This document shows, one piece after another, positions 34,482 through 44,872 of a stretch of DNA of 44,872 nt. Position 1 is the first letter of the stretch. Every line of letters begins with the position of its first letter. The DNA comes from Candidatus Woesearchaeota archaeon. GTDB taxonomy: Archaea > Nanobdellota > Nanobdellia > SCGC-AAA011-G17 > JACPNG01. Under the pieces are notes generated by a model that made no database searches, was not told where the DNA came from, and saw nothing but the letters and a program-made list of their open reading frames with translations. Where the stretch lies: the NCBI GenBank assembly GCA_016185605.1, contig JACPNG010000002.1, positions 1 through 44,872 on the forward strand, given 5' to 3'. A program made the translations under genes and the position numbers.

Positions 34482-34489
34482 TTTATAAA
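34482..34489 (+). promoter_or_regulatory. TATA box of the radical SAM/beta-RFAP cluster
   Basis: TTTATAAA lies 26-33 bases before the first ATG of the cluster. I see no second TATA box inside it, so the four genes probably form one leaderless-type transcript. Confidence 0.5.
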
Positions 34490-34514
34490 GTTTTTAGTAA
34501 GCATATTATCTAAT

Positions 34515-35612
34515 ATGAGCAAAAAAAACCTTTTAAAATTAGTAAGAAAAATAGACGGAAGTGTTAATAATATCAAACAAGATTCTGACGAAAAAGATAT
34601 TTCAATAAAATATATTTGGGAAGTAGCAGATACACACTTTAGAGCAGATGGTAAAAAACAAGGTGTGGAAAGTGGTTACTTTGTTGGAATAGATTACGAA
34701 GATAGGCATTCTGTAACGGTTTCAACTCAACAAGGTTGTTCTTGGACGAAAGTAAGCAAGCAATGCACTTTTTGCGAAACTGGACAGCAAGATTACCTTG
34801 GGCAACTTTCCGGAGAACAAATAGTTCAACAAGGATTAGTAATGGCTCTAGATAATGGAACTCCTGAAAAAACTGGTCAGCTAGAAGTAGCTTTTATGGG
34901 TATGGGTGAGCCAGCTGCAAATTACAACGAAGTTGCAAGATCCATAGAGGGTTTTGAAGTAATTTTACCTAATTTCAAAATGAATTCAATAAGATACATT
35001 TTTTCTACAAGTGGTGTACCTCAAAAAATTATACAACTAGGTAAAGACTTATATGAAGGAAGATTCGGAAATGCAAAAATTAGATTACATGTTTCTTTGC
35101 ATGCACATACAGATGAACAACGCAATGAAATAGTCCCTATAAATAAAAACTTTCCAATTGCAGATTTAATGAGTAGTATTAGAGAATATTCAAGATATGT
35201 TGATATGGTTGAAAATGCGGACAAATTAGTCAGTATAAACTACATGTTATTTAACAATTATAAGTCTAGACCCGGCGTTTCTTTCACAAACATAACACCA
35301 CAATCAATTGAGGAACTTGCGAATCTTTTAAACGATCCATTGCATTTTAGACCGGTTTTATGCGAGTTTAACGAATGTAGCACACCAAATGATTCAGTAT
35401 CATTTAGCCAGGCAGAAGAATTAAAAAGAATATTGGAAAAAAAAGGTTATAAAACAAAAATATTTGGATCATTTGGTCATAGTGCTAATCTTGCTTGTGG
35501 ACAACTAGTAGGAACCATTGACGAAAATTGCAGAGATCAAAAAATAGTTGATTATAATATTCTTAAAAATGTTGAAGAGAGTGTGTTGGAGGAAATGTGT
35601 CAGATAAAGTGA
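34515..35612 (+). CDS. RlmN-like radical SAM enzyme with C-x8-C-x2-C
   Basis: 365 residues with the RlmN/Cfr plan: VTVSTQQGC, then GMGEP (129-133), SLHAHTDEQRNEIVPINK and a late LACGQLVG whose Cys (C328) matches the methyl-carrying Cys of RlmN. The cluster cysteines are C75, C84 and C87 in CSWTKVSKQCTFC, a C-x8-C-x2-C spacing instead of C-x3-C-x2-C. The Cys needed by RlmN for release (position -7) is Thr here. It is therefore not a standard rRNA/tRNA A2 methylase. The next gene's GTG overlaps its 3' end. Confidence 0.88.
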   Translation: MSKKNLLKLVRKIDGSVNNIKQDSDEKDISIKYIWEVADTHFRADGKKQGVESGYFVGIDYEDRHSVTVSTQQGCSWTKVSKQCTFCETGQQDYLGQLSGEQIVQQGLVMALDNGTPEKTGQLEVAFMGMGEPAANYNEVARSIEGFEVILPNFKMNSIRYIFSTSGVPQKIIQLGKDLYEGRFGNAKIRLHVSLHAHTDEQRNEIVPINKNFPIADLMSSIREYSRYVDMVENADKLVSINYMLFNNYKSRPGVSFTNITPQSIEELANLLNDPLHFRPVLCEFNECSTPNDSVSFSQAEELKRILEKKGYKTKIFGSFGHSANLACGQLVGTIDENCRDQKIVDYNILKNVEESVLEEMCQIK

Positions 35613-36665
35613 TTGTTCGTTCATCGGCACGCATACACTGTAATAGTTTGAAAATGAATACTAAAGGGAGACGTGGCGGGGGTGGTTTGGGTTTCTCTAC
35701 AAAACAACCACAGTTAGAGTTTGTTTGTTCGACTTTTAATCAATGTAGAATAATAACTGCGGATAAAATATTAGAAAACGTAGTATCTGGATACGCTAAT
35801 AAAATGTGTGATGAATATCATTTACCAGGAATATTAGTCGAAATAAAAAATAGTTACCCTGTTCATTTTGGTTTGGGGAGTGAAACACAGTCTGCTTTAG
35901 CAGTAGGAAATGCACTTAAAGAATTATACCAAAAAAGAAATATTTCCAACGAAGAAATAGCAAAGTCAACAGGCGTTGCAGGAGTTTCAGGAATAGGGTA
36001 TTATTCTTTTGCGAAAGGAGGTTTTATAATTGAAGCAGGATATCCAATGGCTCCAGACTTAGAAAAAAAGAATTTTGAATTACGCGGTTCCGAAAGAGTT
36101 CAAGTTACTTCTGATAATTCCAAAACAATCTCCCACAACAAATTTCACTAGAGAAGATGAAAATAGACTATTTGCTGATTATGCTACATCTCCTAAAGAA
36201 ATAGGGATTATATGTACTTCTACATTAATGGGGGTGATACCCGGATTAATCACCAGAGATTATACAACTTTCGTAAAAAATTTAATGCAAATCTCCCACC
36301 TTGGTACGAAAAAAGTTGAGTTAGAATTAAATAGGTCATGGATATTTCATGTCCAAGAAATATTAAACAAATTTATAGATTTTAGATATCAGAGAAATAA
36401 AGAAACAGATTTTAGTCTTAGCAACGATAATGGAAATACATTGAGTGAATTGCTAAAAGGAACTGATGAAATTGTTTTAAAGAGACCCATTCCATGGCTC
36501 GGTTTGTCCTCATTAGGTCCAACACTTTACAGTTTTATAGACTCTAGAATTTATGATACTGTCAGTCTGCAAAAAGAAATCAAACAAATTATTAATGACG
36601 ATTCTAAAGTTTTAATCACAGAGGTAAACAATGATAAAGCACTCATTCAAAGAATTGAATCTTGA
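35597..36665 (+). CDS. Beta-RFAP synthase-like protein, frame shifted at an A7 run
   Basis: Homologue of beta-ribofuranosylaminobenzene 5'-phosphate synthase (MptG), the entry enzyme of methanopterin synthesis. The first part has HFGLGSETQSALAVGNALKE (90-109) and VSGIGYYSFAKGGFIIEAGYP. The second part, from VPKEFKLLLIIPK, lies in the +1 frame. The shift falls at AGAAAAAAAG (36061-36070): with one A less the frames join. Start GTG at 35597 follows GGAGGA. Either a real one-base insertion, a read error, or slippage expression explains it. The 3' end overlaps the methyltransferase gene. Confidence 0.8.
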
Positions 36666-37677
36666 AAATGAAATTTTAATAACTGATTTTATGAGAACTT
36701 ACTCATTGACCTGCGAGACTGTTTATTATAATATTCAAAAGAGTTATTCAACAGGGCAGAAAGAAGTTCCAGTGCTTAATTTTTTAATGCAAACAGACAA
36801 CCACTTGCTTTTAGGAAAAGATGATTCATTTTATAGAAAATATAGATATTTGCGTTCAGAATTTAGAAAAACATTTAATATGAAAAGAGAGTGCACATTC
36901 ACAACCCTTGGGCAGATGACAAATTCAATAGAAGAAATTCCTTTGGGTGTTCATATTGGAGAAATTTGTGATTCTTCTGAGAATTGGTTACAACAAATAA
37001 GAATGAACTATGGAACAAATTATTTTTTAAAGACAAAAGATGATTATATCATAGGTCCTGAGGAGGCTTTAATTTTAACTGTTAAGGAAGCAATTAAAAA
37101 TTCAGGGGCAAAACGGTTGTTGGAATTAGGTGCGGGCACTGGAGAGGTAAGTGCTCACGCAATGAGAAGTTTTTCAGAACTTGAAGTGTTTGTTAATGAA
37201 GTCAGCAAAAGTTTAACAGATCATCTATCAAATTACATTTCATTAAACGCCGAAAAAACCGGGAATAAATCCAATTTGCTCGTTGGAGATGCGAAAGATA
37301 TTATAATTCCAGAAGTAGACGTTGTTTGTAGTGGAATTTTCTATGGCGAACTGCCTGCACTGATAAAAGAAAAAGGAAAAGAAATTGCTCAAAAAATAAA
37401 AGATGGGGTTTTTATCATACAAAGCGGAATGCTTGAAAATTTATTTTCGCTATTAGTTATAGATCCAGAAATACTACCTGAAATTAGGTTATGGCCTTGG
37501 TATGATAATAGAATGAATTTAAGGAATTTATTCAGCGAAGTTAATCATTTTTATTTATGTGGAGAAATGATTACTCTTGCTTCGCAAAATCGTTTGCTGA
37601 ACGAGAAAATAATAAATAGTTTATCTGATAAAACAACCACTTTTGAGCTTGGACAATATGAAATCGAAAATAGATGA
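36631..37677 (+). CDS. SAM-dependent methyltransferase with unknown N-terminal domain
   Basis: 348 residues. A class I SAM motif is at 163-172 (LLELGAGTGE), followed by FVNEVSKSLTDHL and NLLVGDAKDI, the usual motif II and III positions. The first 150 residues (SFKELNLENEILITDFMRTY and on) match nothing I know. The ATG follows GAGGT and overlaps the previous gene by 35 bases. The substrate is unknown; as a cluster member it may act on the same compound as the two upstream enzymes. Confidence 0.8.
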   Translation: MIKHSFKELNLENEILITDFMRTYSLTCETVYYNIQKSYSTGQKEVPVLNFLMQTDNHLLLGKDDSFYRKYRYLRSEFRKTFNMKRECTFTTLGQMTNSIEEIPLGVHIGEICDSSENWLQQIRMNYGTNYFLKTKDDYIIGPEEALILTVKEAIKNSGAKRLLELGAGTGEVSAHAMRSFSELEVFVNEVSKSLTDHLSNYISLNAEKTGNKSNLLVGDAKDIIIPEVDVVCSGIFYGELPALIKEKGKEIAQKIKDGVFIIQSGMLENLFSLLVIDPEILPEIRLWPWYDNRMNLRNLFSEVNHFYLCGEMITLASQNRLLNEKIINSLSDKTTTFELGQYEIENR

Positions 37678-37978
37678 GATATTTAAAGATATACTTGGAA
37701 GAAAAAGAAGTTTGCCTAATTTATTTAATGACAACCCTAGAGACAATATTAAAAAATTAGCTGAAATAATGCCAACTGTAAATCTTGCCAAATGCACTCT
37801 TTTTGATCTAGATAATGAGGAACCAAATTCAGTAATGTACTTAACTTACTTGTTGCAAAAAGAAGGAATACCTTTTGGAATCTGTAAAAATGTGAGAGTT
37901 TTCAGAAAAAACAAAATTATTGTAAAATGTGAAGGTGGTCCAACATGCCCTTGTAAAGGCAGATATTTCATATTTTAA
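37658..37978 (+). CDS. Small protein with Cys-rich tail, last gene of the cluster
   Basis: 106 residues, not recognised. The end reads CEGGPTCPCKGRYFIF, with C-x6-C-x-C that could bind a metal or cluster. I start at the ATG at 37658; an alternative upstream start is possible. It overlaps the methyltransferase by 20 bases, so it belongs to the same transcript. Confidence 0.65.
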   Translation: MKSKIDEIFKDILGRKRSLPNLFNDNPRDNIKKLAEIMPTVNLAKCTLFDLDNEEPNSVMYLTYLLQKEGIPFGICKNVRVFRKNKIIVKCEGGPTCPCKGRYFIF

Positions 37979-40451: not shown

Positions 40452-40730
40452 ATGTGGATAAAATTATTGGAGAAAAGGCTAGACCGGAAAAAGGCAGAGA
40501 TTACATTTGATCCACACCTATTTGATAGAAAAGAATACTGGAATCTTGATTTAGATAGGATTGAAGAAACAGCAAGAAGTGGAAAAGTATCTGAAAATAA
40601 ATGTGAAAAGCCAAATAAATTATGCCTCAAAAGATATTTCGGAAAGGAGAATATCACCTATACCATAATTGTAAGGTATCATAAAAATTTTATAGAGGTT
40701 AAAACAGCATGGCCAAAGAAAGGAAGATAA
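40452..40730 (+). CDS. DUF4258-like protein, candidate toxin
   Basis: 92 residues. ITFDPHLFDRKEYWNLDLDR and KPNKLCLKRYFGKENITYTI resemble a group of DUF4258-like proteins found beside zinc-finger regulators in archaea. The partner gene overlaps its end by 22 bases. By analogy with such pairs it may be an RNA-cutting toxin, but the activity is inferred. Confidence 0.7.
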   Translation: MWIKLLEKRLDRKKAEITFDPHLFDRKEYWNLDLDRIEETARSGKVSENKCEKPNKLCLKRYFGKENITYTIIVRYHKNFIEVKTAWPKKGR

Positions 40731-41029
40731 TGTGTGACTGCGGTGGAATTTTGATAGAGAGAAAAATGAAATTTGAAGAGATTGAAACCGAAGCTATGGT
40801 GTGCCCTAAATGTAATTTTGTAACTTTAACTAAAGAACAAGCTGATAAATATGTAAAATTAAAGCAACTGCACAAATTAATTGATACAGAAAGAAAGATA
40901 ATAAGAATAGGAAATTCAATGGGATTTACGCTGCCAGACGGCCTTCAAGAGTTTGGTGCAGAAGTTGGTAGAAAAGTAAAGATTAAAGCATTAAGCCAAA
41001 AATCATTTAAGGTTGAACTAATAAGCTAA
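40709..41029 (+). CDS. Zinc-finger plus AbrB-type protein, candidate antitoxin
   Basis: 106 residues. The N-terminal YgiT-like zinc finger has CDCGG and CPKC, and the C-terminal part IRIGNSMGFTLPDGLQEFG with GRKVKIKAL is an AbrB/SpoVT DNA-binding fold. It overlaps the candidate toxin. It probably represses the module through the upstream palindrome. Confidence 0.75.
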   Translation: MAKERKIMCDCGGILIERKMKFEEIETEAMVCPKCNFVTLTKEQADKYVKLKQLHKLIDTERKIIRIGNSMGFTLPDGLQEFGAEVGRKVKIKALSQKSFKVELIS

Positions 41030-41109
41030 GAGCAGAAAGATTACCTCTTTTATCCATTAAAGAATGGTTTTATTTATGCTTAAATAGTTTTTTAATATTT
41101 TATTTATTA

Positions 41110-41448
41110 TTATTCTGATATCTCTACAACTATTCTATCCCTGCTTTCAGGATGTATATTAACCTCTTTGCCTTTTTTTAGTTTTAAAAATTCTATAAGT
41201 CTTCTTGGAAGCCTTATATCCAATGTTGTTCCTGCCTGTCCAATCTTGGTTTTCGCTTCTAGTCCCCAAAGTCCCTTTTGTTTCGCGATATCAGTCATTT
41301 TTTTTGAAGTTTCCTCATCAAAGAATATTTCACTGCATTTTGGGCATTTCAATGCATCAAACTTCCCCAGACTAATTCCATAAAGATTGTATTCTATCCT
41401 TTCTTTCTTCAAATTTCCTTTTTCACATATATAGCATTTTTCATTCAT
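41110..41448 (-). CDS. Zinc-finger plus AbrB-type protein, candidate antitoxin (second module)
   Basis: 112 residues of the same plan: CYICEKG and CPKCSE form the YgiT-like finger, and TTLDIRLPRRLIEFLKLKK with GKEVNIHP the AbrB fold. It starts 9 bases after the candidate toxin stop. It converges with the first module's antitoxin. Confidence 0.8.
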   Translation of the reverse strand: MNEKCYICEKGNLKKERIEYNLYGISLGKFDALKCPKCSEIFFDEETSKKMTDIAKQKGLWGLEAKTKIGQAGTTLDIRLPRRLIEFLKLKKGKEVNIHPESRDRIVVEISE

Positions 41449-44319: not shown

Positions 44320-44872
44320 TTATATTACACATTGTCCATCTATGAATGTTCCTTCTTTGCATTTATAGCATCCGTTGTTATAGCATATAGCATCATCTGG
44401 ACAGCCACAGCTATCGCATTTTGGAATTAAATTTCCCTGGTCGCAATAAAATCCTTTTAACGAAGAGCATTCATTATAAGGAGTATTATCATAGCATCTT
44501 TGCAATGGCTTTTTTATGTATTCATTAATGTCAAAACAATTTAATTTCCAGTATTTTGATGATTCCGTGGCTGATCCCCTGCAATCACTGCATGTAGCAT
44601 CCCATATCTCAAATCTGCCATCATTATCTACTCCAACAACTAGATGATCTATTCCATAGCCTTGTGTATCTGCAAAGCATAAATTCACATTTTTTATTCC
44701 AGAATTTATGAATAAGGAAGATAGTAATACGCTCATATCTGTGCATTCCCCATACCCTTTTACCAATGTCAATACAGGGGGATTTACATAGCTATTCTGC
44801 CAGTCTGGAACTCGCTGATATTTTACATTTGATCTGACAAAATTTATTAAATATTCTTTTATTTTTGATTCA
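44320..44872 (-). CDS. Transglutaminase-like surface protein, partial
   Basis: The frame is open to the window edge (5' end missing). The transglutaminase-like triad is visible: Cys in GYGECTDMSVLLSSLF, His in GIDHLVVGV and Asp in EIWDATCSD. Upstream in the same frame lie VRSNVKYQRVPDWQNS and NPPVLTLVKG, the typical lead-in. A C-terminal tail of about 50 residues carries about nine Cys. It may be a surface protease or crosslinker. Confidence 0.8.
   Translation of the reverse strand, partial: ESKIKEYLINFVRSNVKYQRVPDWQNSYVNPPVLTLVKGYGECTDMSVLLSSLFINSGIKNVNLCFADTQGYGIDHLVVGVDNDGRFEIWDATCSDCRGSATESSKYWKLNCFDINEYIKKPLQRCYDNTPYNECSSLKGFYCDQGNLIPKCDSCGCPDDAICYNNGCYKCKEGTFIDGQCVI

Follow-up and report, generated by a model that had tools for sequence, protein, structure and literature searches.

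What would an archaeon of the Woesearchaeota make with an RlmN-like radical SAM protein, a homologue of beta-RFAP synthase, a class I methyltransferase and a small cysteine-containing protein encoded side by side? The four genes lie head to tail on the plus strand at 34515-37978 of the window, that is, of the whole 44,872-nucleotide stretch of contig JACPNG010000002.1 analysed here. A sequence-only reading had described them as overlapping genes sharing one TATA box and standing between unrelated genes, and had suggested that they make or methylate a ribofuranosyl-aryl or pterin-like compound, or a nucleotide-like modification, rather than methanopterin. Two enzymes of the RFAP family frame the question: both MptG and ForT use a phosphoribosyl donor and an aromatic acid, and release CO2 and PPi.

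An operon at a site of variable gene content

The operon is real: the ORF coordinates confirm that each gene overlaps the next, and the cluster has a sole TATA-box-like element, TTTATAAAG, read directly from the sequence at 34482-34490 on the plus strand, 24-33 nt upstream of the first start codon. This element is the probable single promoter for the four genes, the first of which (34515-35612) is probably leaderless. Shine-Dalgarno-like motifs on the plus strand stand before the RFAP gene, which begins with GTG (motif GGAGG at 35588-35592), and before the methyltransferase gene (GAGGT at 36621-36625). The cluster has a GC content of 32%, and it is close to the window as a whole in base composition and codon use; of its genes, the one for the RFAP homologue falls just beyond the range of 23 reference genes. 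The family assignments of the sequence-only reading hold at family level, as judged by profile and PDB matches.

The setting among unrelated genes is likewise borne out: the genes to the left are conserved in genomes of the same family that lack the cluster. Four of these genomes (G056, G057, G058 and G062) keep, as far as their contigs reach, the series THUMP methyltransferase, Hjc-like nuclease, LTD-domain protein and 138-aa protein, the LTD protein being detected in two of them. On this match in gene order, contamination is rejected. The site to the right of the 138-aa gene is variable in gene content. In G057, the very next gene is a homologue of the one at 44320 in the window, and the 10.5-kb segment 33833-44319, which contains the cluster, is missing at the corresponding site; in G058 and G062, other genes come after it. 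The variable stretch that holds the cluster also carries, at 40452-41448, small genes that, judged by eye, resemble toxin-antitoxin-type pairs, namely a short basic protein with a Zn-ribbon/AbrB-like one, and a second Zn-ribbon/AbrB-like gene.

No second copy of the four-gene cluster was found in 371 genomes of the phylum searched with the methyltransferase, in three draws, of 335-378 genomes, screened for RFAP-family members, or in plasmids, phages or viral contigs. The searches thus did not show the four genes to be a conserved set, and the case for their acting together is built on a single operon. Genes of the RFAP family are scarce in the class: among the draws searched, only the source genome and G129 have one. 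Protein searches also spoke against two possible origins: a viral one, the methyltransferase and the RFAP homologue having no relatives in phages or viral contigs, and a plasmid one, the methyltransferase having no plasmid relatives and the RlmN-like protein finding only ordinary RlmN and Cfr there.

The RlmN-like protein

The first gene encodes a 365-aa protein recognised as RlmN-like by TIGR00048, PDB 4pl1 and alignment. Its score against NCBIfam TIGR00048 (135.3 bits) is under the RlmN equivalog cut-off of 290 (E. coli RlmN reaches 593.9), it matches the RlmN structure 4pl1 with an E-value of 3.6e-22, and no Pfam model matched it. In an alignment with E. coli RlmN and with Cfr(C), it shares with the class A methylases RlmN and Cfr the radical SAM core, the GMGEP motif, E105, the methyl-carrier C355 within ACGQL (RlmN numbering) and all three cluster cysteines. 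It differs from them in the spacing of these cysteines (CX8CX2C instead of the CX3CX2C of RlmN), in extra loops, in a Thr in place of the resolving Cys118, and in an N-terminus of ~30 residues where RlmN has an RNA-binding domain of ~90. C118 has been described as indispensable for the activity of RlmN and Cfr (PMC9692996), and with its replacement class A methylation may not work here as known.

The RFAP homologue: a broken frame and an incomplete PRPP site

The second gene (35597-36665, plus strand; ORFs, profile matches and alignment) belongs to the beta-RFAP-synthase family, as had been claimed from the sequence, and is not one intact ORF, a point that the sequence-only reading missed. It consists of two ORFs in different frames, 35597-36151 for the N-terminal part and 36075-36665 for the C-terminal part; the switch to the +1 frame falls at an A7 run, 36063-36069. 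Deletion of one A in silico yields a 355-aa protein that aligns with its relatives through the break (RILNYAVP at the junction, against PILARYAMP in G129) and scores 121.7 bits against TIGR00144 (cut-off 113.5), compared with 77.7 and 50.2 for the separate halves. The displaced frame is open for 195 codons, for which the chance expectation is p ~1e-10, so that the coding sequence was recently under selection. The gene is, then, a recently coding one, interrupted either by an indel or through faulty assembly. Elsewhere in the window, 52 A/T runs (36 of 7 nt and 16 of 8 nt) sit within intact ORFs, which leaves an error plausible and not proven; the break may stem from a sequencing or assembly error, a real indel or slippage. 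Slippage by -1 at the heptamer A AAA AAG fails as an explanation, because the gene continues in the +1 frame past the run, and the -1 frame meets a stop two codons on.

Among solved structures, the relatives of the RFAP homologue are those of ForT (PDB 6YQQ and 8AP0, E-value 4e-6). Against NF040726, the MptG equivalog, the joined protein scores 143.9 where the cut-off is 328, and the C1-cluster and haloarchaeal members also reach only 175-186. With MptG/beta-RFAP synthase (TIGR00144, NF040726) it has in common the GHMP-like family, the phosphate loop HxGLGSxT, R19 and S139. The roles of the PRPP-binding residues have been described for ForT, including a salt bridge from R135 to the 5'-phosphate of PRPP (PMC8183095); in ForT numbering, R19, H99, S104, T106 and S139 are retained, and the position of R135 is occupied by V, as against R in 14 of 14 comparison proteins. 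PRPP may therefore not be the donor, and ribosyl transfer from PRPP, as the sequence-only reading had pictured it, is weakened by the loss of Arg135. The protein further differs from MptG in a K at the position of D19, a residue whose role is known in MptG (PMC6787355), in an insertion of ~35 aa, in the frameshift and in having no methanopterin context. From ForT, the formycin C-nucleoside synthase, which belongs to the same family and exemplifies C-nucleotide synthesis outside methanopterin, the operon is set apart by the missing R135 and by the absence of the purine-pathway partner genes of formycin-type clusters.

In the tree, which contains no methanogen MptG sequences and is hence partial, the RFAP homologue stands with the ForT, rhizobial and G129 homologues, apart from the C1-cluster and haloarchaeal sequences (100/100). 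It lies far outside the bacterial C1 and haloarchaeal set, on a branch (3.96) too long for its position to be settled, and the AU test does not reject a placement with that set (p 0.43).

The methyltransferase and the small cysteine protein

The third gene (36631-37677, plus strand) encodes an orphan of 348 aa. By its sequence, it appears to have a class I SAM-dependent methyltransferase core: residues 129-201 match PF05219 (DREV) with an E-value of 1.2e-5, just under the cut-off, weak BioC/CbiT-type matches in NCBIfam fall below the curated cut-offs, and motif I reads LELGAGTGE at residues ~163-171. The N-terminal ~130-145 residues matched no known family, and, apart from a fragment match of 53 residues, no homologues were found in the 371 phylum genomes, plasmids, phages or viral contigs. 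The fourth gene, an ORF ending at 37978 on the plus strand, encodes a small orphan protein of 105 aa from ATG 37661 or 111 aa from TTG 37643, the ATG being the more likely start. It carries a cysteine motif, C..KCEGGPTCPCKG, at its C-terminus and had no match in Pfam, NCBIfam, PADLOC or PHROG. Single-sequence AlphaFold2 models of the two proteins (pLDDT 30 and 42 for genes 3 and 4, respectively) were uninformative.

RFAP homologues in other genomic contexts

Members of the family act outside methanopterin synthesis; ForT, for one, makes a C-nucleotide (PMC8183095). On a plasmid of Mesorhizobium sp. L-2-11 (L067:8986-17721), a ForT-like gene (294 bits to ForT) adjoins homologues of SAICAR synthetase, PurH and phosphoribosylanthranilate isomerase, in what is likely a formycin- or pyrazofurin-type cluster. 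On Rhizobium and Cupriavidus plasmids (L058:6167-11397; L065:7189-11586; L066), RFAP homologues annotated only as 'beta-RFAP synthase family' adjoin a gene of the Ham1 (non-canonical NTP pyrophosphatase) type; in Rhizobium, a Ham1 + AAA_18 kinase fusion stands beside the RFAP homologue and a D12 DNA methylase lies upstream. This association suggests a modified nucleotide, perhaps related to defence. Finally, the DPANN genome G129, of the same class as the source genome, has an RFAP operon (L055:4336-10623) with cupin-like, AAA_18 kinase-like, B12-binding radical SAM, tRNA-nucleotidyltransferase-like, second radical-SAM-like and PHP genes, adjoining HydG/HydE/HydF-like genes; it is a candidate for a new C-nucleotide pathway.

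A possible route to a methylated C-riboside

By analogy with these activities of the RFAP family outside methanopterin (ForT, Mesorhizobium, the rhizobia and G129), we tentatively propose that the operon could encode an accessory, probably acquired pathway to a methylated aryl or heteroaryl C-riboside, a reading to which we give somewhat less than an even chance. The RFAP homologue would couple an aromatic or heteroaromatic carboxylic acid to a phosphoribosyl donor; CO2 and PPi would be released, and the product would be a C-nucleotide, not methanopterin. The RlmN-like protein, using SAM and its retained C-terminal Cys, would then act on an sp2 carbon of this small ring and not on rRNA, the class I methyltransferase would add a further methyl group, and the small Cys protein could serve as carrier, scaffold or sulfur/metal partner. 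For a radical SAM enzyme working in series with a class I methyltransferase on one small molecule, the C10P/C10Q cyclopropanase is a reported precedent (PMC6050322); its radical SAM member is HemN-like, unlike the RlmN-like protein here.

In favour of the proposal count the overlapping genes under one promoter-like element, the passing of the TIGR00144 cut-off, the retained PRPP residues, the RlmN fold with C355 and the cluster Cys in place and the RNA-binding domain cut back, the failure to detect two methanopterin/folate marker families in the genome, the nucleotide-type contexts of RFAP homologues elsewhere, and the empty site in G057. The broken RFAP frame, the replacement of R135 by V and of C118 by T, and the single instance of the cluster count against it and hold our confidence down. 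A more specific version, in which the operon is a natural pathway whose C-riboside synthase, lacking the phosphate-binding Arg, feeds a non-RNA RlmN-like enzyme lacking the resolving Cys, so that C-methylated aryl ribosides arise by a variant of class A chemistry, appears doubtful.

Methanopterin synthesis, with the RFAP homologue as MptG and the methyltransferases decorating methanopterin, is highly improbable. Family membership is the one point that speaks for it; the search for other genes of that pathway covered two marker families, PF00809 (dihydropteroate-synthase-type) and PF02649 (MptA-type), and neither was detected in the 92%-complete genome, although in controls they matched in 13 and 5 of 14, and the lost R135 and the K at the D19 position point the same way. 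Together with the distance of the RFAP homologue from the C1/haloarchaeal set, this upholds the non-methanopterin interpretation of the sequence-only reading. RNA hypermodification has the closest named relatives of the first gene, RlmN and Cfr, behind it: the RlmN-like protein, the sole RlmN-family match in its own genome and so perhaps able to stand in for RlmN, would act with the methyltransferase on tRNA or rRNA, while the RFAP homologue would supply or attach a ribosyl-type group. The mostly absent N-terminal RNA-binding domain, the lost C118 and a score of 135 bits against a cut-off of 290 make this rather improbable, and any RlmN match occurs in only 7 of the 103 genomes of the order, so that RlmN is not a conserved need here.

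The operon might instead be an acquired cluster in decay, its frameshift real, its RFAP homologue dead and the long branch a sign of lost constraint. The break at A7, the branch length of 3.96, the loss of an otherwise invariant Arg and the variable site all fit such a history, which we nevertheless regard as unlikely: both RFAP halves are still open against a chance expectation of ~1e-10, the phosphate-loop motif and the other three genes are intact, and an indel in an A7 run is a classic assembly or slippage error, even if the 52 comparable runs in the window leave their ORFs intact. We see only a slight chance that the product is a nucleotide-analogue or other small-molecule weapon or defence, in the style of C-nucleoside antibiotics or viperin-type analogues. 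The patchy, accessory distribution and the nucleotide kinases and non-canonical NTP pyrophosphatases beside RFAP homologues elsewhere suggest it, but the operon itself has no kinase, transporter or NTP pyrophosphatase, and PADLOC gave no meaningful match beyond a generic methyltransferase region.

The C-riboside pathway, if functional, would add tiny, host-dependent archaea to the organisms that make C-nucleotides, would be a case of RlmN-type radical chemistry acting on something other than RNA, and would raise the question of how Thr can take the place of Cys118 in a class A methylase. The locus is also further evidence, beside the contexts described above, that a gene labelled 'beta-RFAP synthase' is often no sign of methanopterin.

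Other RlmN-like proteins with unusual motifs

A motif scan for CX8CX2C across 84,980 genomes returned seven stretches, five of them chance matches and two true RlmN-like genes, one in a Myxococcota MAG (L019) and one in a Bdellovibrionota MAG (L024). Both proteins share with the archaeal one the cluster spacing, the absence of the RlmN N-terminal domain and an insertion before the SLH motif, and the tree weakly groups the three (75/80). They differ from it in being 25% identical, in retaining C118 and in having unrelated neighbours; an RFAP match adjoining the Myxococcota gene was judged spurious, its frame reading like a cyclic-nucleotide-binding protein. The Bdellovibrionota protein (L024:3885-5117) starts with an apparent signal peptide, which is odd for a radical SAM enzyme. 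Within the order of the source genome, two RlmN-like proteins (L014 and L015, from genomes G015 and G012) apparently lack both C118 and the CGQL cysteine and are probably not class A methylases.
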